Assembly (NCBI GenBank): GCA_037893225.1
Contig: JAZGUH010000724.1
Span: forward strand, 186,001 to 250,000
Reading direction: 5' to 3'
Source of the DNA: Hippasteria phrygiana
Lineage: Eukaryota; Echinodermata; Asteroidea; Valvatida; Goniasteridae
Length of the DNA: 64,000 nt
Part shown: piece after piece, positions 886-32,220 of the stretch
How the letters are laid out: every line of letters begins with the position of its first letter
How positions within the stretch are numbered: position 1 is the stretch's first letter
Program-made: the position numbers and the translations under genes
The notes under the pieces: model-generated
Told to the model about the DNA's origin: nothing
What the model saw: only the letters and a program-made list of their open reading frames with translations
Database searches by the model: none

Positions 886-919
886 AACACGTTTGGAAAT
901 ATTTTTGTATAATTGGAAA
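886..919 (+). repeat. Left terminal inverted repeat of the giant element
   Basis: 34 bp starting AACACGTTTGG, directly after the TACT target duplication at 882-885. It matches the reverse complement of 29553-29586 at 30 of 34 positions without gaps. Confidence 0.85.
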
Positions 920-1481
920 ACACGTTTTCACATTTTTCACGGATAATTACTTCAAAAAACGTTGGTAAGTTGTCAATACTTATCACTTTTGTTGTTCAAA
1001 ATCTTAATTAATCATCATTCTCCTATAAACTAGCAAATTTAATAGATAAAAGGAATATACTGCACCAACATAACAAATTCGTGGTAAAATCTTCAAACAC
1101 AATGGAGACTTTCTTTCTGAATGGACTTTAAATTGTTCTATATGTTCCTTCCAATGTATCATTTTCATGATTGAGATAGTGTTTCTAATGTAGGTTTCAT
1201 TTTCAAAGATTAAAAATTGAGCAATAACATTTATTTCTGAAATAGTGAGTTTTTATTAATCAAAATACAAAAGAACACAAAATGTCCGTTGGTACACAGT
1301 ATTATCCATTAAATTTTGAAAGTGCTTCCCTAATAGAAGTTTTAGGACAATTCTTTAACTTTTTTTAATGAATGTCACTGTTTTTAACACAGAACAAGAA
1401 AAACTCAACATGAAGCTACGAAAACTTGGCATTTCTTTTAAATGTGATATTTATTTGAAAGCATCTGTCCAATATTAACAT
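920..1481. other. Left subterminal AT-rich spacer
   Basis: AT-rich sequence between the terminal repeat and the 73-bp array. I see no open frame of note, no splice-bounded exon and no resemblance to the equivalent right-hand spacer (29139-29552) beyond the terminal 34 bp. Confidence 0.6.
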
Positions 1482-3855
1482 TAGGGTATGCCAGTTGGCC
1501 AGCCCCATACCAGTCTTGACAGCCCGTTACATTATGTTATATAAATTATATAGAGTATCCTACTATAGGGTACGCCAATTGGCGCCCCATACCAGTCTTG
1601 ACAGCCTGTTAAATGAAATTATATACAGGATCCTACTAGGGTACGCCAATTGGCACCCCGTACCAGTCTTCACACAGCCTGTTGCATTATGTTATATACA
1701 GGATCCTACTAGGGTACGCCAATTGGCGCCCCGTACCAGTCTTCACACAGCCTGTTAAATGAAATTATATACAGTATCCTACTAGGGTACGCCAATTGGT
1801 GCCCCGTACCAGTCTTGACACAGCCTGTTGCATTATGTTATATACAGGATCCTACTAGGGTACGCCAATTGGCGCCCCGTACCAGTCTTGACACAGCCTG
1901 TTGCATTATGTTATATACAGGATCCTACTAGGGTACGCCAATTGGCGCCCCGTACCAGTCTTCACACAGCCTGTTAAATGAAATTATATACAGTATCCTA
2001 CTAGGGTACGCCAATTGGTGCCCCGTACCAGTCTTGACACAGCATGTTACATTATGTTATATACAGGATCCTACTAGGGTACGCCAATTGGCGCCCCGTA
2101 CCAGTCTTGACACAGCATGTTACATTATGTTATATACAGGATCCTACTAGGGTACGCCAATTGGCGCCCCGTACCAGTCTTGACACAGCCTGTTGCATTA
2201 TGTTATATACAGGATCCTACTAGGGTACGCCAATTGGCGCCCCGTACCAGTCTTCACACAGCCTGTTGCATTATGTTATATACAGGATCCTACTAGGGTA
2301 CGCCAATTGGCGCCCCGTACCAGTCTTCACACAGCCTGTTGCATTATGTTATATACAGGATCCTACTAGGGTACGCCAATTGGCGCCCCGTACCAGTCTT
2401 CACACAGCCTGTTGCATTATGTTATATACAGTATCCTACTAGGGTACGCCAATTGGTGCCCCGTACCAGTCTTGACACAGCCTGTTGCATTATGTTATAT
2501 ACAGGATCCTACTAGGGTACGCCAATTGGCGCCCCGTACCAGTCTTGACACAGCCTGTTGCATTATGTTATATACAGGATCCTACTAGGGTACGCCAATT
2601 GGCGCCCCGTACCAGTCTTCACACAGCCTGTTGCATTATGTTATATACAGGATCCTACTAGGGTACGCCAATTGGCGCCCCGTACCAGTCTTCACACAGC
2701 CTGTTGCATTATGTTATATACAGTATCCTACTAGGGTACGCCAATTGGCGCCCCGTACCAGTCTTCACACAGCCTGTTAAATGAAATTATATACAGTATC
2801 CTACTAGGGTACGCCAATTGGCGCCCCGTACCAGTCTTGACACAGCCTGTTGCATTATGTTATATACAGGATCCTACTAGGGTACGCCAATTGGCACCCC
2901 GTACCAGTCTTCACACAGCCTGTTGCATTATGTTATATACAGGATCCTACTAGGGTACGCCAATTGGCGCCCCGTACCAGTCTTCACACAGCCTGTTGCA
3001 TTATGTTATATACAGGATCCTACTAGGGTACGCCAATTGGCGCCCCGTACCAGTCTTCACACAGCCTGTTAAATGAAATTATATACAGTATCCTACTAGG
3101 GTACGCCAATTGGCGCCCCGTACCAGTCTTGACACAGCATGTTACATTATGTTATATACAGGATCCTACTAGGGTACGCCAATTGGCGCCCCGTACCAGT
3201 CTTGACACAGCCTGTTGCATTATGTTATATACAGGATCCTACTAGGGTACGCCAATTGGCGCCCCGTACCAGTCTTCACACAGCCTGTTGCATTATGTTA
3301 TATACAGGATCCTACTAGGGTACGCCAATTGGCGCCCCGTACCAGTCTTCACACAGCCTGTTAAATGAAATTATATACAGTATCCTACTAGGGTACGCCA
3401 ATTGGTGCCCCGTACCAGTCTTGACACAGCATGTTACATTATGTTATATACAGAATCCTACTAGGGTACGCCAATTGGCGCCCCGTACCAGTCTTCACAC
3501 AGCCTGTTAAATGAAATGATATACAGTATCCTACTAGGGTACGCCAATTGGTGCCCCGTACCAGTCTTGACACAGCATGTTACATTATGTTATATACAGT
3601 ATCCTACTAGGGTACGCCAATTGGCTCCCTGTACCAGTCTTCACACAGCCTGTTAAATGAAATTATATACAGTATCCTACTAGGGTACGCCAATTGGTGC
3701 CCCGTACCAGTCTTGACACAGCATGTTACATTATGTTATATACAGTATCCTACTAGGGTACGCCAATTGGCGCCCCGTACCAGTCTTCACACAGCCTGTT
3801 GCATGAAATTATATAAAGGATCCTACTAGGGTACGCTAATTGGCGTCCCATACCA
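1482..3855 (+). repeat. 73-bp subterminal satellite, left array (about 32 copies)
   Basis: Tandem 73-bp monomers, each with the palindrome CGCCAATTGGCG inside GGTACG...CGTACC arms, followed by CAGTCTTGACACAGC and TATATACAG. At least two monomer types alternate. One has GCATTATG before TATATACAGGATCC. The other has AAATGAAAT before TATATACAGTATCC and is often followed by CCAATTGGTGCC. The outermost units at both ends are the most degenerate. The same repeat occurs inverted at 28128-29138. Reading frames through it are artefacts of the repeat. Palindromic subterminal repeats often bind transposase; that role here is inference. Confidence 0.95.
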
Positions 3856-5164
3856 CTGAACTTCAAATGAGACCAATTTTACAATTCCAGCCCCTTTGAC
3901 AACTTTACCTTAAAGGACCGTTGACCTCAGTACTTGACCTTTGACATGGCCATCATATGAAGGTTTAAATATTGCATCCAAGACCCAAGTTTATTTCCAT
4001 TGGCTTCACCTTTGTCAGGTGAGACAAAAAATCTTCACTTCAAAAATTGATACAAAATCAGCCAATAATGTCATTGTGAAGTCACTTTATATTTTGCATA
4101 TTATTAATCCTCCCACCAAGTTTCATGATGATTAGACCTATCCTTACACATAAACAGTGTAAGTGTTTTGAAAAATTGCATTATCACTGTGTGCATTCCT
4201 TATGACCAAACAAACCCATTACAGAGAAGAATTTCAAATTTAGCATGTTGGGTTCGTAAAATAGTTACAGTGATAATCTCCAAAACTTCACAAATCTACA
4301 CATGACCTTATTTTTGTTTACCTATAACACATTACGGTCTACTTACATAGGACGTTTTAACCGGACTTATGGTTCTCTGGATATGGGACTTTAGAATATG
4401 CACTTTTAAGATGTCACGTGAAATTTTAAATAGCACGTATACAAATGTATACCAATTTTAAGCAGAAAAGCGAAAAACAATCATTTGGATCATGAGATTA
4501 CACATGACACTATGGTCACTTTTTGTATGAAAATACAAATTTTGTAATTTGATTGTATTTGTTTGCTTGTAATTTGATTCCTGATATATACCATTAAGTC
4601 AGAATATATGCTCACCTTAGGAATAGGGTTTATCTTGTTTCAAATTTCATTTTTAAAAGTTGTGTAGAATTTTATGTAATGACGCCATGAAGACATTTCA
4701 CCAAATAATTGTCACAATTTTAAGCCATGGTTAAACTTAATATCATATACCGTAAACCGTTCAGAATAAATTTTCTTTTACTCTCATTTCAGTTTGGTTT
4801 ATTCTTATGTCAGGCTTTTGTTTATATTTTGAGTTCAGCTAACTCTGACATTCCGGTAACTCTGGGTGTTTAAGTTTTCCTTGAAAAATATGGGCAGATA
4901 TCATAATTATAACTAATCCTGTACAATAAAATTTGTTATACATGTATACGTGCTTTTTAAGCAGTTCGTGTTGGATGATATGTATACATGCAAAGGTTTT
5001 GCATAATTCAGAACAGATAATGGGTAAACACGCAACGAGCGAGGCTGGAAAATATGTCAGCTCCCCACAGCCAATGACCAAGGCTGGAAATATGAGCCCG
5101 AGGGTAAATGGCTTCAACCCGGCTTGTAATTTGGCAAATCCATGAATGGGGGCAAGCAAACTGG
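3856..5164. other. AT-rich spacer, no gene recognised
   Basis: Mostly AT-rich DNA without long frames or splice-bounded coding blocks. Toward its right end (about 5030-5160) it merges into sequence joined to the LINE remnant. Confidence 0.5.
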
Positions 5165-5537
5165 CATGATACACCATCATCATTCTCCTTATCCATCGTG
5201 TCTTGTGGTCAACTTCCAGCTGGCACACCCAGGTGTTGCGTGGTCGGCCCCTGGGTCTCCTCCAGGAGGTGTCAGGGAGGAGTCCCCCTCGTACGTCGAC
5301 ACTCAGCTTAAGGGCGGCGTGGGCTGGCGTGTCATCCGGCAGCCGTCGGATGTGGCCAAAGAGGGAATGACGCCTCCTTGAAATTGTTGCACAGATGTCC
5401 TCAAGACCAGTGGTCTCCATAATAGTAATATTAGTGACGAAGTCAGACCACCGGACACCGAGGATGCGCCGTTGGCACCGCATGTTGATACACGGCATTC
5501 TATTATTACTGAGAATAGTTTGTTCAGTGGGTGACAT
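5165..5537 (-). pseudogene. Decayed C-terminus of a LINE reverse transcriptase
   Basis: The minus strand reads M-R-C-Q-R-R-I-L-G-V-R-W, then a run with RRRHSLFGHIRRLPDD and later RRPRGRPRNTW. This order is characteristic of the region downstream of the reverse transcriptase in many animal non-LTR elements (CR1/RTE/Jockey-like): 'MRCLRRILGIRW ... LRWLGHV.RM ... GRPRLRW'. Only about 120 codons remain. There is no RT catalytic box or endonuclease. Beyond the GRPRNTW motif the frame runs into unrelated residues, so this is a 5'-truncated, decayed copy within the giant element. Confidence 0.75.
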
Positions 5538-5762
5538 TATGCAGCTACAATTGGCTTAAATGGAAATCACGTCCCGAATACTGATTTCCAAATTGTGTCA
5601 CAAGAAAGTACAATTCAAGTTGTGACTCAGTAACTTGTGAAATGAAATTGAGATCAAGAAGATTACGTTTTGTTGAAATATACAGCATTCACCGTCTTTA
5701 GATTTTGAACTTTTTGTTTCTTCAAATGACAAATCAAATGGTCCACCCCACCTTTAAATATC

Positions 5763-5972
5763 TTAACCCCTTGAACCCGGGTGGCGCCGGGGCACCAGGC
5801 CGAGTTATGCAGCCAAGCGAAACGGAAACAAGAGGTTTGTGCAGCAAGCATAACGTACACAATACCCCAATAATGGATTGAAAATGCAGAAATTGGCGTG
5901 TATAGACGTCAACCGGCCAGGTGGCAATTTTCAATCTGCACGTATTTGTGTCAACCGTATGCAAGGGGTTAA
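5763..5972 (-). mobile_element. TTAA-flanked MITE (family B)
   Basis: A 210-bp element bounded by TTAACCCCTTG at the left and GCAAGGGGTTAA at the right. It belongs to the family at 38661-38880, 45710-45932 and 50379-50592, and is among the more diverged copies. TTAA duplications and termini beginning CCCCTTG suggest a piggyBac-type non-autonomous element. Its right TTAA supplies the TAA stop codon of the adjoining minus-strand exon. Confidence 0.8.
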
Positions 5973-6328
5973 TCAGAATCTGATGGATTGTCCAACGCAT
6001 CGTACTTTCTCCTTAATTCCAAGGCAGTTGACTTACTAAGGTGTCCCTTTTTAGTCAAGCTGAATTGCCAAAGTATAACAGACTCCAACATGACAGAGTC
6101 AATGTAGGCCTTGGCATGTCTTCCATTGCCAATAACCCATGGCCTCCACTCTCTCAGCCACTGTATGCTGATTGTTGCTTCTTCCCTTTCCAAGACCTTG
6201 GCAATAAATGGTCTACCTTCCTTTTCTTGGAGGTGGATGGCCACCAAGTCACCCTCTTTGATGGACTCCCTGCTTGTCTCTATTGACACCTCCCCATTCC
6301 TTCTCTTCCCTTGTTCACCGATGATGAC
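5969..6328 (-). CDS. Terminal exon of an unidentified minus-strand gene (BAH-like?)
   Basis: A 119-codon open exon on the minus strand. It is preceded by a good splice acceptor (minus-strand TGCTTGCAG, AG at 6330-6329) and ends ...DNPSDSD-stop. The reading phase at the acceptor is 0. Composition is protein-like, with EGDLVAIHLQEKEGRPFIAK near the start, then a Trp-rich stretch (QWLREWRPW), YIDSV, and LELRRKYDALD near the end. The pattern 'G-D-L-V-A-[IV] ... P-F-I-A-K-V-L' resembles the start of BAH/Tudor-like reader domains found in many invertebrate repeat-associated proteins. I cannot name the gene. The upstream exons, which would lie to the right, were not found. The stop codon falls in the TTAA of the MITE. 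Confidence 0.5.
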   Translation of the reverse strand, partial: VIIGEQGKRRNGEVSIETSRESIKEGDLVAIHLQEKEGRPFIAKVLEREEATISIQWLREWRPWVIGNGRHAKAYIDSVMLESVILWQFSLTKKGHLSKSTALELRRKYDALDNPSDSD

Positions 6329-6599
6329 CTGCAAGCACAGAGAACGAATGGAAATGTATTATTTAATTAAATCAAAACACAGCACTTTTTAAGGCGAATA
6401 AAAAAAAGAAAATCTGAAAAAAATTCAAGTTCATGGTTTAAATAATAAGGTTACAAAAGTTCTTTTTTTTTAAAGCTCACACCTGAAAACAAAGAATAAT
6501 GCAAAGCTTTTTAAGTGGCCTACTGGGCATACATAAACATGTAATTAGAATTGGTTTTTATTTGGGTTTTATATTTAATGGGCTGTATTGTTTAACGCA

Positions 6600-6645
6600 G
6601 TGGCGTAAAGAGAAAACTATTTTGGGGGGGGGGGGGGCAACTTTA
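6600..6645. repeat. GTGGCGTAA + 14-G run repeat end
   Basis: AGTGGCGTAAAGAG followed by a G run. It is the same signature as the border at 352-378 and marks the end of a degenerate dispersed repeat. The surrounding 6330-6780 has no other recognisable content. Confidence 0.4.
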
Positions 6646-6783
6646 CAATTTTCTTTTGTTACTGAAAAATGTATTGTTTATCAAGCCGCTTAATCAATAT
6701 CAGTAATTACATTTAAAATTAATGAACTGTTGTACCTTTGTAATAAGTAAAAACAGTTGCAAAGTGTTCTGCTTTAGTAAGGC

Positions 6784-6996
6784 TTTCCATCCCTAACCTG
6801 CCAAAATCAAACACCCCATTTGTGTTGAATTTTGTGTGATTGGGTACTGTAGAGCCTTGGCACCATCACTTTGCATGGGACTTGATGCCCTGATTTTGTC
6901 TAAGTACAAAGAAAGTGCCATTGGTTTACTACACAGTGTTGGAGTTTGTGTGGTTAGGGAAGGATTCTAGTAAAAAGCCTTGGGCTGTTAGGGTTG
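6784..6996 (+). mobile_element. MITE family C, copy 1
   Basis: About 210 bp, nearly identical to 35956-36181 across 'ATCCCTAACCTGCCAAAATC ... GGGCTGTTAGGGTT'. The better preserved copy has TTAACCCTAAC and GTTAGGGTTAA ends, indicating TTAA target duplication. This copy has lost the outer bases on both sides. Confidence 0.75.
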
Positions 6997-7282
6997 TTAA
7001 AAGTTTTATTAAAATCCGTTGGGTAATAAAAAAAGTATGGCACTTTTTAGTTCAGAACTTCCCGAAAAGGTCACGACTTTTTCTTTGTTTTCTATGTTAA
7101 AAACCTAGTTAAAACAATACCAAATCAAGCCCGTCAATTAAATCTTAAAATATTCATAACTTTTTTAATAATTATACCATTGCAATGCTTGTTCTGAGCT
7201 CTTTCCAATGGTACTAAAATTATGCCAAAATGTTGAATTTGAAACTTTTTGTCACATACCTATCCCATGTCATAAGCCTAGA

Positions 7283-7772
7283 GCCGGTCATGCGCTATTT
7301 AGCGTCAACAAACCCGATCAGCGTCAACAAAGCGTCAACAAGCTCAAAATGCACATTTAAGCTTCACAAAAGCTACACTTGTATTCAACAAACTCTCGCA
7401 TCTCGTATTATGTAAGAAATTGGGCGAATTCTTTTTCACAATCCCACATAAAAACACAATTTTATGACGACAAAATTTCGATAAATGGGCGCCGCCATCT
7501 TTGTTTTCTATTTTGCGCATGCGCGATTGCACCATGTCCCAGAAAAACAAGATAGCTGTCGGGAAAAAGCACCGTTGATGTCGTACTTTTTCGCTTAAAA
7601 TCACACATTTTAAGATACTTTTACTTTTTAGATACTAAATGATACTTTTTAAATAATCATCCATAGGAGCCAACTAAATATTGTGAATAACATGTTTAAG
7701 CTTAACAGTGCTTTTAATTTGTATAAGTTGTTGACGCTTTGTTGACGCTAAGTACAAATTAGCATGACCCGC
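7283..7772. mobile_element. Inverted-repeat element (AGCGTCAACAAA family)
   Basis: The left end has GGTCATGC then AGCGTCAACAAA repeated three times. The right end has TTTGTTGACGCT then GCATGACC, the reverse complement. These bound a 490-bp element with no coding capacity. A fragment of the left half recurs at about 18012-18060. Reading frames inside on either strand are short and unsupported. Confidence 0.6.
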
Positions 7773-9449
7773 CTAACGCGAACGTTAGAGCTGGAATTTT
7801 CAAGCCAAGCACAAGTCAAAAAAGCTCCATAACGTTAAACTCTATAAAAATGCCATCTGAGAAGTGAGATACAATTTAAGAATTAAGATTGAGGTACTAA
7901 AGTTTACTTACGATTTAGATGAAAAGTGGAATTTCCAGTTGAATTTCGAAAGCTTCCTCAGGCCATGGAGTTTACTACCTCCATGCTCAGGCTCAGCCTC
8001 AGCAGGCCTTACATCTTTGCTGTCGTCGTTGTGCTTTTTAAAATGGCGCGCGGTATGACTCGACCCGATCTCGCTAGCTGGCCGTGTACTTGGCCGGCTA
8101 GAGTATATTACTATAGTTAGTCTATGGGGGTCATATATGGTAGCATGTAGCTGCAGCCACTTCACATCATGCATGGAGTTAGTTGGAGCATGGAGCTATA
8201 AGAGGTACCTCCAATGTTCACATAGGCCTCGCAGGAATCTTCGCGTTGATCGCTCCTCACACGATCACACCACTACTTTCGAATACAACCACTTTGAAAA
8301 TGCTGGCACTGACGGTAGTGACACGTTGACGGTTGACGGTCGTCGGTGCACACAAATCCTTACAAAAATTTCTTCAAAAGATGAAACTTTACTTTCCGTT
8401 TCGCATCCAACTTTTTACAATCACGATGTTCTGAACAAGTGTGCTAATTTAGAACGTGTACTTCATGACAACATTCCCGTCACGCTCTCTGTGCGTACGA
8501 CGTACGTACATGTACTACTAGTACTACTATACTACCTTGAAATTGTTCCAACACGAAAGGGGTTGCCCCATTATGCTTTGTAGGGGGTTTAAATAATTAA
8601 AGTCGCTCTCAAATGAGTAAATATTATGATTTTGTTTTATAATAAAAAAAATAATGTATTTAAATTCTGCTTTTATTTACAAAAAAGGCCTACATGAACT
8701 ATTTCTCTAATCCACGTTTATAAAAACTGAGCAAAAAAACTTTGCAGAATTGACTTACCAAGTAACTTACCCGGTTATTTTAAATCACTCAGCTTCCACC
8801 AAAACCACTTGCCGGCGGTTTATAACTTGCGCATCGTGTGTGTGTGTGTGTGTTTAGTATCCGGACCATTAACAGCATAACAGGCTTATTTTGTTTGCAG
8901 GTTCTTTTTCTCGAAACCCTAGCTTCGTCACCATCTTCGGCTTCGGCTCCGACTTTTGAATGACTGAGAAGCAAACCAAATGGAATTATTCTAAATTGTG
9001 GTGCATGTTCTGCCTCGGGAACATTCATTCGGTTGATTATGAAAGCAAAAATTTGAATATTTCCACTTGGTTTGCTTCTCAGCAACGGCAGCGGAACAGG
9101 AGGAGGGGGGGGGGGGGGCGAAGGGAGCATTCCCTCCCCCCACCCCCCAACTTTTTCCACTTTGGGGAAATGCCTCCCCCCCACCTTAGCAGTTCATCAT
9201 AAAGCAAACATAGAAAGTGGCAGCATTTTGCCTCCCCCACTTTCAAAAGTGTTCCGGCGCCGTTGCTTCTCAGTTTAAATACCGGAGACGAAGGTTTCGA
9301 GAAAAAAACCTATAATATGACGTACGAACAACAGCGCCCTCGTGTGGCACGCGGTGCTCATGGCCACTTTTCGACCTCGTCTTTTTTTCACTTTTCAACC
9401 TAAAACACAGAACAATAAATGTATAAAATATCGGTTCACGGGAAAAAAT
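7773..9449. other. Spacer with microsatellite and G-run, no gene
   Basis: A CpG-containing patch lies around 8040-8350, but I find no coding block bounded by splice sites. A (TG)n run is at about 8837-8853 and a G run at about 9104-9118. The open frames over 8137-8583 and 8789-9202 are low-complexity or unsupported. Confidence 0.4.
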
Positions 9450-12400: not shown

Positions 12401-12660
12401 CTCGGGCTAAATTTTGTGCAAATGGGTCACTTGGCGCAAATTTGTGGGTCAAATGGTCATTATTCAGCATTGTATCAGTTTTTCAAGTTTGGCTTAGTTG
12501 AAATTTACGGATTGGATTTAAATTTTCATAAATGGACGGAGGGCATAATAGGATATCACAGTTCAATTTTTTTGAAAATTGGGGACACGGTTCAAATATT
12601 GGGATAAAACGGGGGATTTTAAGCAATAAATTTGTATGGATGATGTAATTGGGTCTATCC
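9450..12660 (+). repeat. 187-bp satellite array (about 16-17 copies)
   Basis: Tandem monomers of about 187 bp. Landmarks are GGGTTAGTTGAAAT, CATGAGTGGACGGAGGGCAT, TAGGATATCTCAGGCC, TTGGTCACTTGGTTCAAAT, GGTCACTTTTGAG and GTGGCATAGAT. Outer monomers are most diverged and the central ones (about 10.3-12.3 kb) most similar, as expected of unequal exchange. At least two versions of the middle segment exist ('GGCACGTGGCATAGATGGTAAAATTG' type and 'GGCTTGTGGCATAGATTATAGAATTT' type), and they occur in runs. Apparent frames (10352-10708, 12416-12607) come from the repeat. Confidence 0.93.
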
Positions 12661-15422: not shown

Positions 15423-15769
15423 GGTAACGTGTTTACTGTTCCATGTGGGTGATCTTATAGACCTATACATGTATGTAACTCGGTCGCATATATATTGCTT
15501 TTTGACGTTTGCTAGTTTATTTCCTATTGTTACGGCATGGTGAAAACTGTCTAGTTCCCCGACGTAATGGCTTTGAATGTGACGATGTTTGCTGTTGGAA
15601 CCAGACTATCAATGGTCTCTGATTTTATTTCCCTTTTAACAAATTTCTCCAAAAGCACTCAAATCAAAGGGAAGAAAATTAAATCTACTGAAATAAAAAT
15701 TGATTCAATACCTAAAACTAGTAAAAGGCTAAAACTTAAAAAATCTTTTCGAATTTTTTTTTTAAAAAT

Positions 15770-15850
15770 CAGACAGCACGGCATGGATTCGAACCAAGGT
15801 CCCTAGCCATCAAAACCAACGCCGAAGCGCTTTGGCAGGATCGGCACTCT
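15770..15850 (-). mobile_element. tRNA-derived SINE fragment
   Basis: On the minus strand there is an RNA polymerase III B-box match (GGTTCGAATCC) in tRNA-like context. The A-box half is weak and the 3' tail is not recognisable, so it is a decayed SINE or tRNA pseudogene. Confidence 0.4.
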
Positions 15851-16407
15851 GATCTGATACGTTTGCATTGTGTTTTTACCATGCCGTAATAATTATGCAT
15901 TTGAAAGTCGTGTAATAACACGGCGCGGCTGACGTCACTGTGGCCAATCCTTGGGATTTTTCCCAAGATCTTTGGAATTTTGGTGGGGAAAATATGGATT
16001 GCACATGCGCAAAGTGCTTCTTCCCGTGCTCTGTGTTAAATGCATTGCACAGTGTTGGGAATTCTTGGGAATTTTACTGGCTGAATCTTGGGAATTTCAA
16101 ATTTCATGAGTGGACGTAAAATAGCCACTGCGAAAATGAATACATATAGAATACAACATGATGAGGTGTAGGTAGGTACACTTGTACTTTGTAGTTGTTG
16201 TACGTACACATAAGCACGGAGGAAGTTTGGTCATCAGGTCATGATTCCTTACTCACTTGGCCATGCTTGGACCTTTCTTGGACTTTCTCAAGTAAGAAAA
16301 GACCTTTACCTTGGCTAATGAGGACGACAGAATTCAGAACGCAACGCGAAAACAAAGATGGCGATCACCGCGACGTGTAGTAAACACGCAAAACCGCATT
16401 GATTCGA

Positions 16408-16428
16408 ATGGCAACTGCCGTAAAGCGC
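16408..16428 (+). CDS. ParB/MTase gene, candidate first coding exon
   Basis: ATG at 16408, peptide MATAVKR, then donor CGC|GTAAGA in phase 0, which fits the phase-0 acceptor at 17400. An upstream ATG at about 16356 (GATGGCGATC) opens only a 14-codon frame that stops before this ATG. The CpG-rich context fits a 5' end. The short length makes this assignment tentative. Confidence 0.4.
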
Positions 16429-19400: not shown

Positions 19401-22400
19401 CATAGATTCTCATTGGTGGTACTTTATTTGGTAAGAAAATAGTGGAATTTAGGTTCATAATTGCACATAAAAACATTTTTTTGGGGACAACAAATTACAG
19501 TGACTTGAACTGATCTTCATGCATCTTTCAACGTCTGCATGGACTCCACACTTATAGTCTCCTGACAATGAACAGAGCGTACGTACTGTCCAAAACTTAA
19601 AGTTTGTCCCTGTTCTTTGCAGAACCCCACAAACTCAAAAAAGATGTTCTCACATAGTGCCACTGTAAATGTTTATCTTGAACTTCTGTAAACCAATAGT
19701 ATTGCCATGACATAACATTTATTCTCATTACATATCTATTGGTCAATTTTCAGTCGGCCAAAGAAGCGAAAGCAAAGTGACATCAGTGTTCCACCTCTCC
19801 TGAATAAACAACGCAGGGCATCTCAGCCATCGACATCTGCCCCATCCTGCAGTCCATACAAAACAGAGACTGACAGAGCTTTTCTAGGTAAGTTCCAACC
19901 ATTTGTTACTGTTATTGCGTGTCAATGTGAAAGCCTGCATCCCCATAAATGCTATGGGAAGGATGCTAATTACTACTATAGGAGAAACAAATATATGTTT
20001 GTTGCCAGTTACAATTTGTATTTAGGAACAAAGTAGAGTTAGGAAAAAGAGGTTTATTGTAGATCACAGAACATCCTAATGAGTTGTAAACGCAAGGCAT
20101 TGATAGTTTCCTTGTAATCGCATGGTTTTCATTGAAAACAAACACGGTTACTATATAGGCCTATTTCTTTACTTTCTTTGTTAACCATACCTTTTTCAGC
20201 ATGCCTGCTATGTTTCTTGTAAATGTTTCTGCATGATCAATTCACCTCTTGCATTAATGACAGTAATATTTTCAGTTTGGGTCATTGTTTTGAACGATAT
20301 AAGGGGTTTATACAGTTTACTTGGATAAAGTATTGTATCCACCACTAAACCTATAGACTAAGCCGTGTCCGCACTGGAAATTTTTTTTGAAGGTTTTACC
20401 GAGACGATGGTAAAATGAAAAATGGTCAAATGTGATCCGCACTTGGACTTTCGACACTGGAAAATTTTACTGAGACCGTGGTAGAAGTAACCGAGCTGTC
20501 GATATAATGACTCATGAGGGCGCTTTCCGTGACCTTTCTACATTGACGCGATTGAACCCAAATCACGCGTGCCTTTTCATTTTTTCAGCTGATGTGCACA
20601 CGCAGGCCTACGTCTTTGGCACCAATCAAACTTCCAACTTTATCAATAATAGTATCTGCCATGATTGCGACCAAAAGAGGAACAACGCACTGCAATTTTA
20701 AATTTTGCCACATCTGCACCGCACTGCGGTGTAACAATGCAAAGCGCATGCATGGTTTCCCTGCGAAGCATGACCTTGCACTTGGGCCGGATGTACGCTT
20801 TTAAGTTTTACCAAAAAAAGTGCGGACAGGGCTTTATTCTCTCCAGAAAAGTAAGGGGAAGAAAGTACATGTATATATCAGTTTATAATTGCTTGTAGAA
20901 ACCAGCTCACAACAAAGAGAGAGAGAGAGGATGGGGAAAGTTGGTTGAAGCAAAAGCAGCCAAATATTCATTCAACAGGAAACTCATTAAGTTGCTTGGA
21001 GAATTCCAAACCATATCTTCTCTCCATGGAGGCTACCCCCATACCCTCTCTACATGTAGGACCTAGCTCTATTATGCTCTAGGACAAACTAATTAATCAA
21101 GTGTTTCCTTGGGAGTGTAACCGTAGAAACAATGACCTCTTGTGGAGCATAGAGGAAAGAAAACAGATGGGCCATTAACCAAGGCTGACCATGAGCTGTG
21201 GTCACTGTACATGTACATGTATGTGTGTACATGTACATGTAATTTGGCAAACAGAGTACTGTCATGAGAAACATATTTGGCTATAGGGCCATCGCGGATT
21301 TGTCCATATTTGTCCAAGTACAAATCTGTGATGGCCCTAAAGCCAAATATCGTTCCCATGACATACTCTTATTACTTTGTGCCAAATTCCATGCTTTTAA
21401 TAATTGTGCAAGCTGCCTCACTATAAATTGGCAGAGTCTGAGTTTAATCCGCTGCCAATGTTTCACAAAGATTCATTTTATCCCCTCTACAGACATGAGC
21501 AGCACCATCTGTATTGTGTACTAACCACATTATTTTCTCCTGTTCCACAGGTATGGACAACTCGGTTTGTACTTTCCAGCAACTCAGAAAGGCTAGGGAG
21601 AAGGCCTTACGCTATTCTTACCATCAAGATAACTACAATTTTTTCTCCCTCTCTCGATTTATCCCTACAGGTTTGCAATTATCTACCTCTCCCTGCTTGG
21701 GTACCCTCTCACCGCCTCTTCAAAGGAGATGGAACCAAATTCTACATGGTACCTCCATTAAACTCATCAATGTCCTCTCTCAACAGTGTCAAACTACACT
21801 TCAGAACCTCCATCAGAATATTGCCCACCTCGACTCGGAACTTAGATCCAGTTGTTCTGACACCAGATACAGTAAATTCCATGATGAGATTGATAAGAGC
21901 GTATCTAACCTTGACTCTGTTCTGCTTAACAGGAGAAACAAGAAGATTGGTGGCTTGCTTACCAAGCAACATCAACGCAGACAGAGACGCTTTAGACGCC
22001 CCAGGCCCCAGTCTACACCACCACCCCCTTCCAATACTGTAGTTAACCTTTCTTCATCATCCATATCTGACGCTGAACATAAACTTCTCTCAAAGGGTCT
22101 TAATTTTTGTCCTACTCCCCACACTGTGAACCAGGTAGAGCTCAGCCAAGATCTCACGGAATACTACCGTAGGATCCGTCTCCGAGAGTTTTTCCTTGAT
22201 TCTGACCGATGTGACCCAGAACCGTTCCGTGTCAAAAGTACCTGGGTACCCCCCAAGAATCGTGTACCAGCCCTCGAGACTTATGTTCCAGTTGTCAGTT
22301 CTCAAGTCACTAACCCTGATAACTTTGTCCACAGAACTCATGACAATCTCCGCAGAGAGGAGCGCTTGGCGTTGAATGCCTTGCGCTCCCGTACTGATAT

Positions 22401-25400
22401 CATCATCAAGCCGGCCGACAAAGGTTCAGCTGTGGTCATCATGGATCGTCATCAGTACATTGACGAGGCCCACCGCCAGTTGAACAATCATACTAACTAC
22501 ATCTGCCTTGACTCTGACCCCACAGGTACATTCTCTCAAGAGATACAACAGGTGCTGGACGATATGCGATCACGTGACCAGCTGTCTAAGAAAGCTCATA
22601 AATTTCTCTCTCCCTCTGACTGTAGGACTGCCAGATTTTATCTCCTTCCAAAGATTCACAAGGCTGGCAACCCCGGTAGGCCCATTGTCTCTGGTAATGG
22701 TTCACCTACGGAACGTATCTCCCTGTTTATTGACAGTTTTCTCAAACCCCTCGTTCCACAGATGCCATCATACATCCATGACACCCCAGACTTTCTGCGC
22801 AAGCTGGATGGAATCAAGAACAAGATTCCCAGCACAGCCATCATTGGGACTTTTGACGTTTCATCCCTGTACACCAACATCCCCCACGAGGAGGGTATTC
22901 GTGCTTGTTCCTCGTCCCTGGCCAAGGCAGGACACACAACCCCACCCATCAGTGATATTGGCACCCTCATGAGACTTGTACTAACCAAGAACAATTTTTC
23001 CTTCCTAGGCAAACACTATCTACAGGTACACGGTACAGCCATGGGCACTCGCATGGCCCCCTCCTTTGCATGCCTCTTCATGGGCGACCTCGAAGAGCGC
23101 ATGCTTGCCTTAGCACCATGTCGCCCCTGGGTATGGTGGAGATATATTGACAATGTATTTTTCATCTGGACCAGTGATCAGGACAGTCTGGAGACTTTCA
23201 TTAATCACATTAATTCCTTCCACAGGACCATCAAGTTTACATCAGAGTATTCAGTGCATCAGACCAACTTCCTGGATGTCACCATCCGCAAGGAAGACAA
23301 CTCGGTAACCACTGATCTGTATTCTAAACCCACAGACACCCACCAGTACCTCCACTCCTCCAGCTGTCACCCCAGGCATTGCAAGACAGGCATAGCATTC
23401 AGTCAGGCACTTAGACTCAGAAGGATTTGTTCTAATAATTCTGACTTTTCCCATCATGTACAGGTACTGAAGAATAACTTGGTTGCCAGGGGCCACAGCT
23501 CCCGCCAAGTTCAACGTGCTATCGCCAGAGCCAAATCTATCACCAGAGATTTTGCGCTCAAGAAAAAGACACCTAGCACTAATGCCGACCCCAAGATTCC
23601 CTTGGTCACCACCTTTCATCCTAGTCTCCCTCCCCTTCGTAAAATAACTAATGACAACCATCATATCCTTCATACTTCAGATCGCCTTGCCCGTGCCGCC
23701 CCTGACAACCCAATATTGGCTTATAGGCGCCCCCGTAATCTACGAGACCTGATTGTTCGAGCCGAGGTCCCCACCTTGGCTGCATCCCCTCCCATACAGC
23801 ATGGTACTTTTAAGTGCAATTCCAGGTGTGTTGTTTGCCATACTCACATGCAGGAGTCTGACTCCTTTTCTGGCCATTCATCTGGAACTACTCACAGAAC
23901 CAATGGCAACATTACTTGCAACACCTCTAATGTCATATATCTCATTTCTTGCAGGGTTTGTGGTATCCAGTATGTCGGGGAGACCAAGAACACGCTCAAG
24001 AAGCGTTTCTATGGCCATCGATCGACTGTAAACACCAAGAAAATTGACACCCCTGTTGGTCATCACTTCAACTTGCCTAACCATTCCATTTCTGATATGA
24101 TTCTACAGGGCATAGAATCACTTTTCCACCGCAAGGACTCGGTTCGCCTCAGCCGAGAGAAAGTTTGGATGAAACGTCTTCGGACTATTCAACCACATGG
24201 TCTAAACATCCAGGAAGGGAATGATTAACTTTTAATTTTTCCCCCATTGTCATTTGTTTACAGATTATCCTCCTGGCAAACCCTCTTGGGGTCTCTTGGC
24301 CAAATGGGGTTGTCTTACCATTTCCTGTTTATCTTTGCCACTAACCACATTCCTTTGTCCAATTCCCCAGCTTCAACCTTCATCCTAATCCCTCCCCGCA
24401 TTCATCCTTACCCAAACCTCTCTCTTTGATGTTTACCCACTGCCATGCTCCCTTGCATCCCTCTTTTGTGTTTCTCCACCCACCCCCTCATGCATGTGTG
24501 TTCCCTACATGTTTGTTTCTTGTACTCTGTCATTTGCCTTTGAGAAAGAACTTGCTTAAGTTCGAAACGTCAGGCCAGCTAATTTTTTGATTTAAAGATT
24601 TAGTTACTTTAAATGTTTAACTGCTCTCATTTGATATTCTCTACCATGCAAAGTCTCATATCACATTCATGATTTAAAGGTAACATATTCTTTTGTCTTT
24701 CACTTACAGGCTATGCAATTATAATTGATGTGATTGGACTTAATGAGCTTCAAATTCACAAAGTTACTTGCCGGCACAGTTACCCTAACAAAAATAAATG
24801 GGAAATCACGTGAAAAATTAAAACATCTTGATATTTAGCCCAAAAAAATAAACGGGGGGGAAATGTGTTTGTGCAGTCAAGCATAAGATAAATTGGCAGA
24901 GTCTGAGTTTAATCCGCTGCCAATGTTTCACAAAGATTTAGTTACTTTAAATGTTTAACTGCTCTCATTTGATATTCTCTACCATGCAAAGTCTCATATC
25001 ACATTCATGATTTAAAGGTAACATATTCTTTTGTCTTTCACTTACAGGCTATGTCAAGATTTCGTTGCAGAATCTTGAGGTTGGCAAACAAATAAGACCA
25101 GTACGTGACGACTTTGTTGCCAGCCTACAGCAACGCATGCAGAGGTTTTCTATGTACGCCTACCAACCATTAATGGTCATCACCAAGACACTCAAGGACA
25201 AGAAGCACTTCAATGAAGCTAATGTAAGTCTACTCTATGAAGTTGTTATTGGTTTAACAGCTAGAATATTTTCCTGATTAAATAAATACAAATAAATTGA
25301 AGTGGTATACAACTTTATATTGTATCAACAATCTCAAATCGCTGTAATTAGCCCATTCGTCAGGTCAACAGATCACACAGCCACTGATATCAGTGCAGGT

Positions 25401-26855
25401 CATCAACCCTCATACCTCTTAGACAACACTATGGGAATTTTGTGTGGTAATTTTTGTTTGTCTCAGATTTTGCTCGTTCCACATGCAATTATAATTGATG
25501 TGATTGGACTTAATGAGCTTCAAATTCACAAAGTTACTTGCCGGCACAGTTACCCTAACAAAAATAAATGGGAAATCACGTGAAAAATTAAAACATCTTG
25601 ATATTTAGCCCAAAAAAATAAACGGGGGGAAAATGTGTTTGTGCAGTCAAGCATAAGATAAACTGCACAGACGGCAGCCAATGGCGTCATCCGGCCTGGT
25701 GACACTTTTTTGTTTGCGTCCACAGACGTCATTTGTACGCAAAGGGTTAAGCAACCTAGCTGATTTTAAGCACACTTTTAAAATCCGGCCAAGTACATGT
25801 ATGTTTATAATCGGTAAAGCACATATTCCCATTCCTGAATACTTTCATTTGAAAAGTTGAGAAAAAAGCTATTAATAATGCACAAATTTAATTATTTTTT
25901 CAATAATTTTACTGCATGGGATGTTTGTGAAACACACCTCTGGTCATGTCTATGGTGTACGTGCACTGTATATATCTCCGAGGACAAGAGAAGAAAGGAA
26001 ACACAAAGAAACCTTTCAGTCCTCGAACGTTGAGTCTTTTGTTGAAATCGGTCCTCGAACGTAAGGATACGTGCTTAGTCTTTGGGGGTTGGTTATATTA
26101 AAGGAACAATAGGAAACACAAAGCATTGTCCTCGGACGTATTGGGGAAGTACGACTGTGTGTGTGCATTGTGTAACAATTTTACTGCACGCACAGTAAGT
26201 ACCGCACTTTGGTGCAGCGGTGTTTACCTGAAATCTAAAACCACCTATGTGACAGACTCTCCACCAATATGAAGAGGTAAACTGTTTCAGGTATTCATGA
26301 ATAAGGAGAAATTCAAATCAAGACGAAATAAGTCCAATAATTTTAAACAAATTGTGCACTCAAAATTCATATCAGAATAATATCCTTTGTGACAAAGCAA
26401 CTTAAACAACATGACGACAAATGCACAAACCAAGTTTTAAGTTTAAGTTTTAAAAGAATTAGCATTTGCAAAACGAAAAAAAAAGCATACGTAAAAAAGA
26501 AAGAAATTCCAAACTGCACCTGAATATTTTTGGATTAAAGAAAGACTTGAATACCTGTGTTGATGAATATTTAATTGCCGTAAATGCTGTCTTTTTATAT
26601 TTAGGTACAGGTTTGCTTGCAAGCCTGAAAGAGGGAAGAAACTGTATTGCAGTGGAGGAGGATGGAGAGAAGCTTTTCCATCTTCAGGCCAGGTACAATC
26701 TGATGGCAGGAGACATGACAAGCCAAGAATCTTCCAGCAGTGAAGAGACCCAGATTGAAGAAGACAGTAACAGTGAGAGGGTTTTAGATGACATGGAGGA
26801 GGAAGTTGTGTCATTCAGTGAGATTTCTCCAGTGCTACATCTGAAGGTTCCATGA
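16408..26855 (+). CDS. ParB-like / DNA methyltransferase gene, spliced, possibly broken
   Basis: Five coding segments: 16408-16428, 17400-17653, 19754-19887, 25048-25223 and 26605-26855. Phases match across the first four (0, 2, 1). Segment 3 begins with a basic NLS-like RPKKRKQ. Segment 4 has a ParB-type pattern (ISLQNLEVGKQIRPVRDDFV ... QPLMVI). Segment 5 reads GTGLLASLKEGRNCIAVEED, the 'GxGx..A...GR..I.[IV]E.D' motif of N6-adenine/N4-cytosine methyltransferases (PF01555-like), then an acidic Ser/Glu tail and a stop. ParB plus methyltransferase architectures are known from phages, plasmids and some animal repeat-associated families; the function here is inference. Odd points: segment 4 ends in phase 0 but segment 5 needs an incoming phase of 1. 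The ParB remainder and the methyltransferase DPPY part are not visible in the 1.4 kb between them, so an exon is missing or the gene is rearranged. A Penelope-like element lies in the 19888-25047 intron. Confidence 0.55.
16656..16754. repeat. Perfect-stem palindrome (about 45-bp arms)
   Basis: GAGTAACTCCAGCTTACATG on the left and its complement on the right, with a second near-perfect segment (ATTGGGAATTCGCAT/ATGCGAATTCCCAAT) and a 7-bp loop. A foldback micro-element. Confidence 0.8.
17400..17653 (+). CDS. ParB/MTase gene, exon with unknown N-terminal region
   Basis: Acceptor TGTACCTAG before 17400 and donor AG|GTGATT after 17653, exit phase 2. About 84 codons, beginning VVFKSPADKPRILLSRQFLW and ending EIQPPSQ(R). 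Codon use and residue mix are protein-like, with a hydrophobic middle (DFIELFAV) and an acidic end. I recognise no domain. Confidence 0.6.
18432..19017. mobile_element. MITE with ATGGCCGGT termini
   Basis: The left end ATGGCCGGTCTTAAACG and the right end CGTTTAAAACCGGCCAT are inverted repeats with one mismatch, bounding 586 bp. Inside is a tandem duplication of about 38 bp (18662-18735; GGGGTTAATTCA...GCTGTACCGGCAACTTGC twice). It lies in the intron between the second and third coding segments of the ParB/methyltransferase gene. Confidence 0.65.
19754..19887 (+). CDS. ParB/MTase gene, NLS-like exon
   Basis: Acceptor TTTTCAG and donor CTAG|GTAAGT. Entry phase 2, exit phase 1. The peptide starts with a split Arg/Ser codon, then RPKKRKQ, a classical-looking monopartite nuclear localisation signal, then a Ser/Pro-rich linker ending ETDRAFL. 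A disordered linker is likely. Confidence 0.6.
20359..20836. mobile_element. MITE with TAAGCCGTGTCCGCACT termini
   Basis: Left TAAGCCGTGTCCGCACT and right AGTGCGGACAGGGCTTTA are near-perfect inverted repeats, extended inward by poly-T and GTTTTACC. About 478 bp, non-coding. Target duplication unclear (possibly TA). Confidence 0.7.
21270..21346. repeat. Short palindrome
   Basis: ATATTTGGCTATAGGGCCATCGC...GATGGCCCTAAAGCCAAATAT forms a stem of about 30 bp with a short loop. It follows a run of ACATGTACATG words at 21207-21241. Confidence 0.7.
21553..24228 (+). CDS. Penelope-like element polyprotein: RT + GIY-YIG endonuclease
   Basis: 891 codons from the first ATG (21553), uninterrupted; the frame is open a little upstream, without an ATG. 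Family signatures in order: KPADKGSAVVIMD (about 22408-22446), LPKIHK with GRPIVSG after it (22645-22698), motif A FDVSSLYTNIP with the catalytic Asp (about 22851-22883), motif B HGTAMGTRMAPS (about 23029-23064), and motif C RYIDNVFFIW (23140-23169). After a basic linker there is a Cys/His cluster (CNSRCVVCHTH, from 23815) and a GIY-YIG nuclease (VIYLISC...GIQYVGET, 23932-23985, then KKRFYGHR). This is the architecture of canonical GIY-YIG-bearing Penelope-like elements, which prime at chromosomal breaks. Odd: motif C has Asn in place of the second Asp. A splice-acceptor-like CCACAG lies just before the ATG. Confidence 0.93.
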   Translation: MDNSVCTFQQLRKAREKALRYSYHQDNYNFFSLSRFIPTGLQLSTSPCLGTLSPPLQRRWNQILHGTSIKLINVLSQQCQTTLQNLHQNIAHLDSELRSSCSDTRYSKFHDEIDKSVSNLDSVLLNRRNKKIGGLLTKQHQRRQRRFRRPRPQSTPPPPSNTVVNLSSSSISDAEHKLLSKGLNFCPTPHTVNQVELSQDLTEYYRRIRLREFFLDSDRCDPEPFRVKSTWVPPKNRVPALETYVPVVSSQVTNPDNFVHRTHDNLRREERLALNALRSRTDIIIKPADKGSAVVIMDRHQYIDEAHRQLNNHTNYICLDSDPTGTFSQEIQQVLDDMRSRDQLSKKAHKFLSPSDCRTARFYLLPKIHKAGNPGRPIVSGNGSPTERISLFIDSFLKPLVPQMPSYIHDTPDFLRKLDGIKNKIPSTAIIGTFDVSSLYTNIPHEEGIRACSSSLAKAGHTTPPISDIGTLMRLVLTKNNFSFLGKHYLQVHGTAMGTRMAPSFACLFMGDLEERMLALAPCRPWVWWRYIDNVFFIWTSDQDSLETFINHINSFHRTIKFTSEYSVHQTNFLDVTIRKEDNSVTTDLYSKPTDTHQYLHSSSCHPRHCKTGIAFSQALRLRRICSNNSDFSHHVQVLKNNLVARGHSSRQVQRAIARAKSITRDFALKKKTPSTNADPKIPLVTTFHPSLPPLRKITNDNHHILHTSDRLARAAPDNPILAYRRPRNLRDLIVRAEVPTLAASPPIQHGTFKCNSRCVVCHTHMQESDSFSGHSSGTTHRTNGNITCNTSNVIYLISCRVCGIQYVGETKNTLKKRFYGHRSTVNTKKIDTPVGHHFNLPNHSISDMILQGIESLFHRKDSVRLSREKVWMKRLRTIQPHGLNIQEGND
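24539..24571 (+). ncRNA. Degenerate hammerhead-ribozyme-like motif in the 3' region
   Basis: A 6-bp stem GAACTT-GCTT-AAGTTC (24548-24563) is preceded by TTTGAGAAA and followed immediately by GAAACGTC. The hammerhead core is CUGANGA - stem II - GAAA, and Penelope-like elements are known to carry minimal hammerheads. Here C3 and G8 of CUGANGA appear substituted, so self-cleavage is unlikely. It may be a relic or a retained structural motif. Confidence 0.45.
25048..25223 (+). CDS. ParB/MTase gene, ParB-like exon
   Basis: Acceptor CACTTACAG, donor AAT|GTAAGT, entry phase 1, exit phase 0. The peptide has the ParB/sulfiredoxin-type start: a short beta strand (VKISLQNLEVG), the Arg pair IRPVR, a helix (DDFVASLQQRM) and QPLMVI. 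The frame stays open past the donor as LLYEVVIG to a TGA at 25275-25277. YEVxxG resembles the next ParB motif, so the true exon may have run further before decay. A truncated second copy of this acceptor is at 24701-24715. Confidence 0.55.
25663..25750 (-). mobile_element. Fragment of TTAA MITE family B
   Basis: CTGCACAGACGGCAGCCAATGG...TTGTACGCAAAGGGTTAAG matches the right-hand end of family B (as in 50500-50592). The left half seems to be represented by 25636-25662 (GTGTTTGTGCAGTCAAGC). Confidence 0.65.
26605..26855 (+). CDS. ParB/MTase gene, terminal methyltransferase exon
   Basis: Acceptor TATATTTAG before 26605; an alternative AG at 26609-26610 is in the same phase. Entry requires one base from the previous exon, completing a Gly. 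The peptide reads GTGLLASLKEGRNCIAVEED, then LFHLQARYNLM, then a Ser/Glu/Asp-rich tail to TGA at 26853-26855. The glycine motif plus the acidic residue about 20 positions later matches the SAM-binding strand-turn of N6/N4 DNA methylases, which in one circular permutation lies C-terminal. The catalytic [DNS]PP[YFW] motif is not here. No clear polyadenylation signal follows. Confidence 0.6.
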
Positions 26856-28127
26856 AATGAGTTTTTGTACTGTACAAAATAGCTTTAAGTTATTTTTCCA
26901 AGTGTCTTTGAACTAGGCCGTTTGTATGAAATTCGGTATTGCACTTTTGGCCTTCACTGACATTTTTATAAACACTGGATACTCAGGGTTTTCCCAACTG
27001 TTCATGGGAAAACAAAATCATAACCTACTCTGGAGGGACTTAAACCCACGACCTGTTCAATAGTCTTTCTTGAGATCTGTTCACGAGAAAATTCAATACT
27101 CGGTTATTCATGTGATAAAAAGTTGCAACTACCCGACTAATATTACAATTAATTATTTACTTACTGGAGCATTACAGTGATACAGCTTGGCTAATCCATA
27201 CTTAGAAAACATTTTGGAAAATGCCATGACCATAAATTTCTTGTCCGTGGAGTTTTGATTAGTTTTTGCAGAGCAATCGTCTTTGATGAAATGTTCATTC
27301 AATTTGATTCACAAACGTGGAAAATACTTAGACCACCATCTGAAGAAGCATGACAAATCATGTCGTCATGATGACATCAGGTGTCATGTGACATGCCCAT
27401 ACAGATGCATATTTTGCAGGTAGATATATTCTGAAGCGCTCCAATTGAAACTTTACATGTACCCGTACCCATGTGTGTTATGCATACATGTGAAAATTGA
27501 GGTGATGTCGTCTCCCTGGGCCTTTGGTACAATGTCAAAGTCCAGCAACAAGTTGCTAATGTTTGGTAACAAACATGCCAAAATTTAACAAAACCTGCTG
27601 TTGGAGTTTGATGGGTTTGAGGTAGTTAGGGTTAAGTTAAGCACTTATTACAAGGAAAATAAGTATTATTATGGATTCAGATATTCATAATGGCTTTAAA
27701 TTGACAACAAATTAGGGGCAGGGTTTTAAGGCACCAAATGCATTTCGACACCATTTTGTTCAAATTGTGTACAATGTAGTTATGACCTGTATAACTACAG
27801 TGTCAAGAAATCGTGCAATTTACTTATACATGTATAACTTCATGCCAATATTTCTGAGATCCGATTAGGTTAAAACTTCAATACCATACAAGGAGGAGCA
27901 ATATCGCAATACATCAGACTTGTATTCGAGTCGACCAAACATAGTCTGAGTCCGAGTCCCGAGTCATGCAGGTTGAGTCATGAGTCACAAAGGTCAAGTC
28001 CGAGTTGCAAGTCACCTTTAATATATAAGTAAATATTAAGGTACATGTACTGCTAAAACCTCACATTGTAAATGTTTCATCTTTTACACTTTTTCTCTAA
28101 TTTAATGAACCGGAAATACACGATTTA
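26856..28127. other. Spacer downstream of the methyltransferase exon
   Basis: No exon or repeat border recognised. It contains imperfect ACATG-rich words and GAGTCCGAGTC words at about 27930-28015. It is the only sizeable unique stretch before the right subterminal array. Confidence 0.4.
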
Positions 28128-29138
28128 AAGACTGGTACGCGGGGCGCCAATTGGCGTACCCTAGTAGGATACTGTATATAATTTCATTTAACAGGCTGTC
28201 AAGACTGGTACAGGGCGCCAATTGGCGTACCCTAGTAGGATACTGTATATAACATAATGTAACATGCCGTGTCAAGACTGGTACGGGGCGCCAATTGGCG
28301 TACCCTAGTAGGATACTGTATATAATTTCATTTAACAGGCTGTGTCAAGACTAGTACGGAGCGCCAATTGGCGTACCCTAGTAGGATCCTGTATATAACA
28401 TAATGTAACATATTGTGTCAAGACTGGTACGGGGCGCCAATTGGCGTACCCTAGTAGGATCCTGTATATAACATAATGCAACAGGCTGTGTCAAGACTGG
28501 TACGGGGCGCCAATTGGCGTACCCTAGTAGGATCCTGTATATAACATAATGCAACATGCTGTGTCAAGACTGGTACGGGGCGCCAATTGGCGTACCCTAG
28601 TAGGATCCTGTATATAACATAATGCAACAGGCTGCATGTGTCAAGACTGGTACGGGGCGCCAATTGGCGTACCCTAGTAGGATACTGTATATAACATAAT
28701 GCAACAGGCTGCATGTGTCAAGACTGGTACGGGGCGCCAATTGGCGTACCCTAGTAGGATCCTGTATATAACATAATGCAACAGGCTGTGTGAAGACTGG
28801 TACGGGGCGCCAATTGGCGTACCCTAGTAGGATCCTGTATATAACATAATGTAACATGCTGTGTCAAGACTGGTACGGGGCGCCAATTGGCGTACCCTAG
28901 TAGGATCCTGTATATAACATAATGCAACAGGCTGTGTCAAGACTGGTACGGGGCGCCAATTGGCGTACCCTAGTAGGATACTGTATATAACATAATGTAA
29001 CATGCCGTGTCAAGACTGGTACGGGGTGCCAATTGGCGTACCCTAGTAGGATCCTGTATATAACATAATGTAACATGCCGTGTCGAGACTGGTACGGGGC
29101 GCCAATTGGCGTACCTTAATAGGATACTAGTGTATAAC
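28128..29138 (-). repeat. 73-bp subterminal satellite, right array (about 13-14 copies)
   Basis: The same monomer as 1482-3855 in reverse orientation (GGGGCGCCAATTGGCGTACCCTAGTAGGATCCTG). The same two variants occur (GGATCCTG...ATAATGCAAC and GGATACTG...AATTTCATTTAAC). The last unit at the outer side is degenerate (CGTACCTTAATAGG), mirroring the left array. Frames across it are artefacts. Confidence 0.95.
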
Positions 29139-29552
29139 ATTGGTCAAGGTTAACCAGTTTATCAATTCAAATATTGTTTTTTGTTTCTTTGCCCATATGA
29201 ATTATAATTAAAAAAATTAACGTGTCTTGATTCAAAGAAATTGTCTGTCTGTTGCCTTTTCTCATTGCTGTTGGTGAAAAAATTGTTTTTGTGGTTTAGC
29301 TTTTGTTGTTTTATAAATATTGTTTTTTTGTGTGATATAGTTAACAATGAATGGTTTTACTTCTGAAAGTACCTTTTAACCCTTTATATTAAAAGATACA
29401 AAAGTAATTTGCGAAAAAATGATTTTTTTTGCTGAAATTTTTACATCTCTTCACTTCCAATAGAGAACATGGAAAAGTTTCAAATTAACATAAATAAATC
29501 CAAGTGTTGGAATATTTCTTCCATTTTATACAAAAAAAATCCAAAATTTTGA
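29139..29552. other. Right subterminal AT-rich spacer
   Basis: Poly-A/T-rich DNA with no coding exon, the positional counterpart of 920-1481 but not similar in sequence. Confidence 0.6.
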
Positions 29553-29586
29553 TTTCCAATTTTACCAAAATATTTCCAAACTCGTT
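29553..29586 (-). repeat. Right terminal inverted repeat of the giant element
   Basis: The reverse complement begins AACGAGTTTGG and matches 886-919 at 30 of 34 positions. It is followed at once by TACT (29587-29590), the second copy of the target duplication, and then by satellite A continuing in phase. Confidence 0.85.
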
Positions 29587-32175: not shown

Positions 32176-32220
32176 ATGCTTGCAGCCTCTAGATTTGTCA
32201 GGCGTTTCTCCACGTCGCAG
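32176..32220 (+). CDS. ALDH1L2: ALDH1L2-like exon 1, mitochondrial presequence
   Basis: ATG then [15 protein letters not shown] and donor CAG|GTAAGT in phase 0. Arg-rich, Ser-rich, no acidic residue, with R-R-F-S near the end: a typical matrix-targeting presequence that parallels the RRFST presequence known in vertebrate ALDH1L2. The next exon opens in phase 0 ([12 protein letters not shown]). The link spans a 15-kb intron and needs transcript proof. Confidence 0.65.

Follow-up and report, generated by a model that had tools for sequence, protein, structure and literature searches.

Positions 886–29586 of a 64,000-nucleotide window from the Hippasteria phrygiana genome (contig JAZGUH010000724.1, positions 186,001–250,000) form a block of 28,701 bp, bounded by terminal inverted repeats (TIRs) and inserted as one piece in a tandem array. 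We consider it likely that this block belongs to a young family of giant cut-and-paste transposons that are non-autonomous and depend on a DUF7869-type transposase supplied in trans by a related element. This transposase is possibly Sola1-like. Transposition efficiency is reported to fall as the ends lie further apart (PMC6431247); in this animal-like genome, six large copies show recent movement at a length of about 30 kb.

The left TIR (34 bp, 886–919, plus strand) begins with AACACG and matches the right TIR (34 bp, 29553–29586, minus strand) at 30 of 34 positions. A TACT target site duplication (TSD) lies on either side (882–885 and 29587–29590), and the junctions read TACT/AACACG...CTCGTT/TACT. 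A 28-base core of the end, with three mismatches allowed, was found at these two sites only within the window, and at none in 100 shuffles. The two flanks, joined with one TACT, were identical over 124 of 124 positions to an unbroken monomer junction of the array (30168–30291, plus strand), and a longer joined-flank stretch was 95% identical to positions 30014–31138 over 1131 aligned columns. Since the joined flanks reproduce the unbroken array sequence, the block represents a single insertion, and its empty site can be seen in the neighbouring array sequence; this comparison concerns the window copy. The first-pass annotation of this DNA had described 34-bp inverted ends flanked by TACT and an unusually large single insertion whose empty site can be read, and both descriptions were borne out. 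TIRs, a TSD of fixed length at independent insertions (see below) and an empty site are together the features of a cut-and-paste element.

A check of the genome for inward-facing pairs of the terminus, proposed in that annotation, did reveal such pairs. In the host assembly (944 Mb, 1285 contigs), the first 100 bp of the left end were present in at least 18 places including the window, all with 92–100% identity and seven of the 18 identical. Both ends were read at seven of these loci, the right end being unread at the other 11, and the ends were paired at all seven, six of which had an exact 4-bp TSD, different at each locus, with flanks of their own. These six are the large copies: C166 (14,102 bp, TSD TAAC), C91 (28,517 bp, ATTA), the window copy (28,701 bp, TACT), C565 (30,980 bp, TAAA), C453 (34,042 bp, ATGT) and C117 (45,086 bp, ATTT). 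Their sizes thus range from 14.1 to 45.1 kb, with four of the six at 28–34 kb. C166 is an internal-deletion copy. The length of C117 was taken from contig coordinates, with about 4.4 kb ahead of the right end unread, and it is due to two insertions that the window copy lacks, one of 11.8 kb with an 8-bp duplication and the other of 4.6 kb at TTAA; the 45-kb length is therefore no evidence for movement at that size. By eye, the insertions within C117 and C453 are additions unique to each among the copies read, rather than lost exons. The seventh locus, C717, holds a deletion copy of 956 bp that joins about 660 bp from the left end, including the left subterminal unique block (920–1545), to about 310 bp from the right, and its flanks, CAAG and CAAA, constitute an imperfect TSD (three of four letters).

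Outside the satellites, the large copies differed from the window copy by 0.05–0.20% (C91, 12 substitutions in 22,474 sites; C117, 13 in 18,287; C166, 15 in 9,181; C565, 42 in 21,884; C453, 44 in 22,474). With divergence of 0.2% or less, movement at about 30 kb is recent, and the element moved as one piece. Another five left-end copies, each read over 6 kb, were compared with the window, and two of these, C120 and C647, shared more than the end with it. The other three (C367, C924 and C515) matched the window at the left end only, over 680, 404 and 159 columns, respectively, with one additional short internal match in C367.

The first-pass annotation recognised no transposase in the block, and we likewise found none in the strands and stretches scanned. 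With stop codons masked, no Pfam family was found on the minus strand at 6329–9597 and 12370–18900, or on the plus strand at 16000–21400 and 24240–28127, and of ten open stretches compared with Pfam, only one, a Penelope-like frame, scored near or above the curated cut-off. The last exon of a presumed transposase gene, gene A, lies at 5969–6328 on the minus strand, where it is the one clear exon left in the window; it is missing from C166. Its predicted protein resembles the end of PDB chain 6wge_E, a Nipped-B-like protein (E = 5e-4). An AlphaFold model of this exon built without relatives had a predicted local distance difference test score of 51 and gave no Foldseek match at E ≤ 0.001, and the fold was not used as evidence. 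No relative of this exon, or of exon 3 of the gene B described below, was found in the viral contigs searched.

The link to DUF7869 comes from C647, an older relative. C647 aligned with the window at the left end (94% over 716 columns) and around the last exon (96% over 813 columns, reaching window position 6297). Upstream of the last exon and on the same strand, it has exons encoding PF25273 (DUF7869), detected at E = 7.6e-33 in one stop-masked frame (L034). Two of the C647 exons matched on their own (E = 7.7e-27 and 5.3e-07), and three translations joined together gave 5e-38; the exon furthest upstream, containing IIIDGMDQ, had no Pfam match by itself. The shared left end and last exon, together with the upstream DUF7869 exons of C647, suggest that the exon in the window is a remnant of a gene of this kind. 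C647 connects DUF7869, an undescribed Pfam domain for which no mention was found in the literature searched, with a TIR element, and a NIPBL-like C-terminal domain would belong to this gene as well.

A shared origin of the NIPBL C-terminal-like domain at 5969–6328 and that of the cohesin loader is possible. Beyond the last exon, the 36 kb read at the C647 locus contained no gene B match, only short pieces of a repeat, and no Pfam family was found in six frames of the stretch L036, which lies ahead of the last 10 kb (L037). At element coordinates 20573–25469 of this locus, inside or beside the C647 copy, one gene is present twice, inverted and broken in both cases, with nuclease-like and cysteine-rich stretches by eye, and no Pfam family was identified there. 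A minus-strand frame at element coordinates 5704–6000 of the locus ends at a stop codon and presumably resembles the N-terminus of Crypton-type tyrosine-recombinase-like proteins.

Several points weigh against a DUF7869-type transposase acting in trans. The Pfam scans covered part of the strands and stretches of the window, and the exon borders are splice-site guesses. No intact autonomous copy was present among the copies read, and no genome-wide search for DUF7869, the exons or the right end was completed. C647 is tied to the young family by five aligned pieces within its left 6 kb, and its alignment with the window ends inside the last exon, 31 bases before the 5' end of the exon. The right end of C647 was not found in the 36 kb read, so this copy is incomplete or interrupted. 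The last exon gave no indication of constraint in C120, with changes at four of 360 sites compared with 18 of 1,370 in the adjoining DNA, and one of these changes creates a stop codon. Finally, we take DUF7869 to be a DDE transposase domain on the basis of its motifs, and the DUF7869 protein had no match in PDB.

Under the explanation that we favour, in which the transposase is supplied by a relative, an ancestor would have lost most of gene A, leaving the last exon, and the middle of the oppositely oriented gene B was probably lost too. The element would have taken in other repeats, and amplification of a subterminal motif would have given rise to its two inverted satellite arrays. A DUF7869-type transposase from an autonomous relative would recognise the TIRs and perhaps also the subterminal 73-bp motif, excise the whole unit and insert it with a 4-bp stagger.

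The two arrays are built from 73-bp units, with 31.6 units on the left (1546–3855, plus strand) and 13.8 on the right (28128–29140, minus strand), in inverted orientation relative to each other. The left arm comprised 24.8–31.6 units in the six large copies and the inverted right arm 13.8–19.8 units in the five large copies read there, corresponding to 25–32 and 14–20 cores, respectively, in the young copies. The older copy C120 (16 kb read) had 5.3 and 3.4 units in two short runs, C647 had one core, and one unit was present at the junction of the 956-bp copy. These low numbers in the older and 956-bp copies indicate that the motif probably began as a single unit and then multiplied, although it is possible that the older copies instead lost units. 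Growth from one unit to inverted arrays in the giant copies raises the question of whether subterminal arrays permit giant size. The subterminal 73-bp satellites had been annotated as palindromic; the inverted arrays are real, but the palindrome of the unit is partial (20 of 26 positions in the best 26-bp window) and no unusual folding of the unit was detected (z = −0.14). It can also be imagined that the satellite is a parS-like landing array for a ParB-like/methyltransferase protein encoded by the element, the arrays having been amplified because bridging them lets one transposase pair ends about 30 kb apart; we regard this as very unlikely. If true, it would describe a eukaryotic transposon with partition-like bridging of its ends, escaping the size limit of cut-and-paste transposition.

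The protein invoked here would be the product of gene B, for which four candidate exons were delimited on the plus strand, opposite to that of the gene A exon: exon 1 (17400–17653; acceptor CCTAG, donor GTGATT), exon 2 (19754–19887; basic motif PKKRK, donor GTAAGT), exon 3 (25048–25223) and a last exon (26605–26855). All four are open and have plausible splice sites, and the first three share a consistent phase, exon 3 being in phase with exon 2; the last exon is out of phase with exon 3, so one or more intervening exons of gene B are missing. Exons 1 and 2 are missing from C166, and exon 3 is missing from C565 and was unread in C117. By eye, we take exon 3 to be ParB-like and the last exon to carry a methyltransferase C-terminal motif. 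No Pfam or NCBIfam match named a ParB or methyltransferase domain, and PHROGs gave weak matches of unknown function only. We keep the annotated ParB/methyltransferase gene as a motif-level lead: its middle is missing, and the ParB-like exon has no counterpart in C565. Around exon 3, the segment 24594–24895 corresponds to 24932–25053 (100%) followed by 25483–25665 (99%); this duplicate leaves out most of the exon, and C565 aligns to the window minus the stretch between these two duplicated segments.

An unrecognised transposase encoded in the candidate gene B exons or elsewhere would make the element autonomous, and we find this unlikely. The open frames and plausible splice sites of these exons and the common phase of the first three speak for it, as does the recent spread of the family, which implies that some working transposase existed. 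The exons, where present in other copies, showed no substitutions and a single 6-bp deletion (in C91), but we rejected this conservation as a sign of function, since just 69 of 22,606 sites vary at all and the copies are too young for unchanged exons to mean much. Furthermore, copies lacking exon 3 (C565), or the exon of gene A together with exons 1 and 2 (C166), have exact TSDs, the last two gene B exons are out of phase, and C647 has a gene of a known Pfam family where the lost part would be. Membership of another superfamily with a TSD of about 4 bp, rather than Sola1, appears unlikely. The TSDs of Academ, Chapaev and Ginger are 3–5 bp long and no superfamily model was matched in this analysis, but the TSD length and the strand layout agree with the Sola1 case, neither of them settling membership.

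Two further explanations concern the copies themselves. Large, near-identical blocks could also spread by segmental duplication or by ectopic recombination, without transposition, but each of the six large copies runs from TIR to TIR, with a different exact 4-bp TSD and its own flanks; we reject duplication because the TSDs and flanks differ, and spread by such routes is hardly credible. The element is known from assembled contigs, sits in a satellite array and holds arrays itself; such arrays are hard to assemble, and repeats might have been collapsed or misjoined. We nevertheless judge an assembly artefact highly improbable, given that the same structure was recovered on six contigs with consistent borders and TSDs.

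Among known large elements, KDZ transposons have 8-bp TSDs and were ruled out by the 4-bp TSDs found here. Polinton/Maverick elements, with 6-bp TSDs and PolB and integrase genes, were ruled out by the same TSDs, and no PolB or integrase Pfam match was obtained in the stretches scanned. The 4-bp TSDs (TACT, TAAA, ATGT, ATTA, TAAC and ATTT) agree with those of Sola1. The view that the block matches no named superfamily was too strong, since 4-bp TSDs are reported for Sola1 and Sola2 elements and a giant Sola1 with a ParB and methyltransferase gene on the opposite strand has been published. This element, Sola1-1_Ec32 from the brown alga Ectocarpus, is 21.5 kb long and carries the gene on the strand opposite the transposase (PMC12477816). 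Our family is similar to it in strand layout, with the ParB/methyltransferase gene here incomplete and recognised at the level of motifs. The giant KDZ, EnSpm and Sola1 elements of Ectocarpus are generally longer than 10 kb and partly longer than 30 kb, contain nested unrelated elements fixed among copies, and often have a transposase predicted to be pseudogenised or absent, with movement in trans inferred (PMC12477816). The present family resembles them in its size, its fixed nested elements and its probable dependence on another element, and differs in its animal-like host, its transposase gene cut down to a last exon and its inverted subterminal 73-bp arrays, which the accessible text of that paper does not mention for the Ectocarpus giants.

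SrosS, a Sola1 element of the choanoflagellate Salpingoeca rosetta, has 32-bp inverted repeats, as against 34 bp here, and a 4-bp TSD like our family, but is much shorter (3,270 bp; PMC6875170). In amoebae, Fanzor elements of the Sola2 type have AT-rich TSDs of 4 bp; some families have lost the greater part of the transposase coding region, and the content between shared ends is chimeric (PMC3627910); our family is like them in all three respects, whereas their TIRs are 12–21 bp long rather than 34 bp and no Fanzor gene was seen here. Long or repeat-built inverted ends are also found in Foldback-type elements such as Galileo, a member of the P superfamily (PMC3688188), and Tetris, which ties a transposon to satellite DNA (PMC4079207). 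The family described here, unlike these, has short 34-bp TIRs ahead of the arrays, a 4-bp TSD and DUF7869 in a relative. No earlier description of it was recognised among the literature matches listed. In sum, it is a TIR transposon of giant size with inverted subterminal arrays, which was active recently and is apparently non-autonomous.

Several other repeats lie inside the block. A Penelope-like retroelement with reverse transcriptase and GIY-YIG domains (21404–24943, plus strand) is flanked by a repeated 75-nt segment. Its open reading frame (ORF; 909 aa, 21499–24228) was present in all six large copies, open in five and broken in C91, and matched the Pfam models for reverse transcriptase (E = 2.2e-6; 28 bits, just below the cut-off of 29.6) and GIY-YIG (E = 2.8e-5). 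Being common to the six large copies, the element was inside before these copies spread. A second, partial Penelope-like ORF, 97% identical to that of the window, was found at positions 8674–9546 of the C166 element. The internal 185/371-bp satellite (9598–12369) is longer in C565 and C453, and missing from C166. An open frame at 4839–5555 (minus strand) matched no Pfam family; by eye, we presume that it is a fragment of a long interspersed nuclear element.

Two insertions are nested in C117. The 11.8-kb insertion (positions 14550–26308 of the C117 element) has inverted ends, an 8-bp duplication (TTTCCTAT), a 731-aa ORF and inverted arms of approximately 200-bp repeats; it is an unrelated element that likewise has inverted satellite arms. 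We take it to be KDZ-like, with a further ORF that by eye resembles a ULP1-type protease. The 4.6-kb insertion at TTAA (29822–34455) contains an 829-aa ORF and is presumably piggyBac-like.

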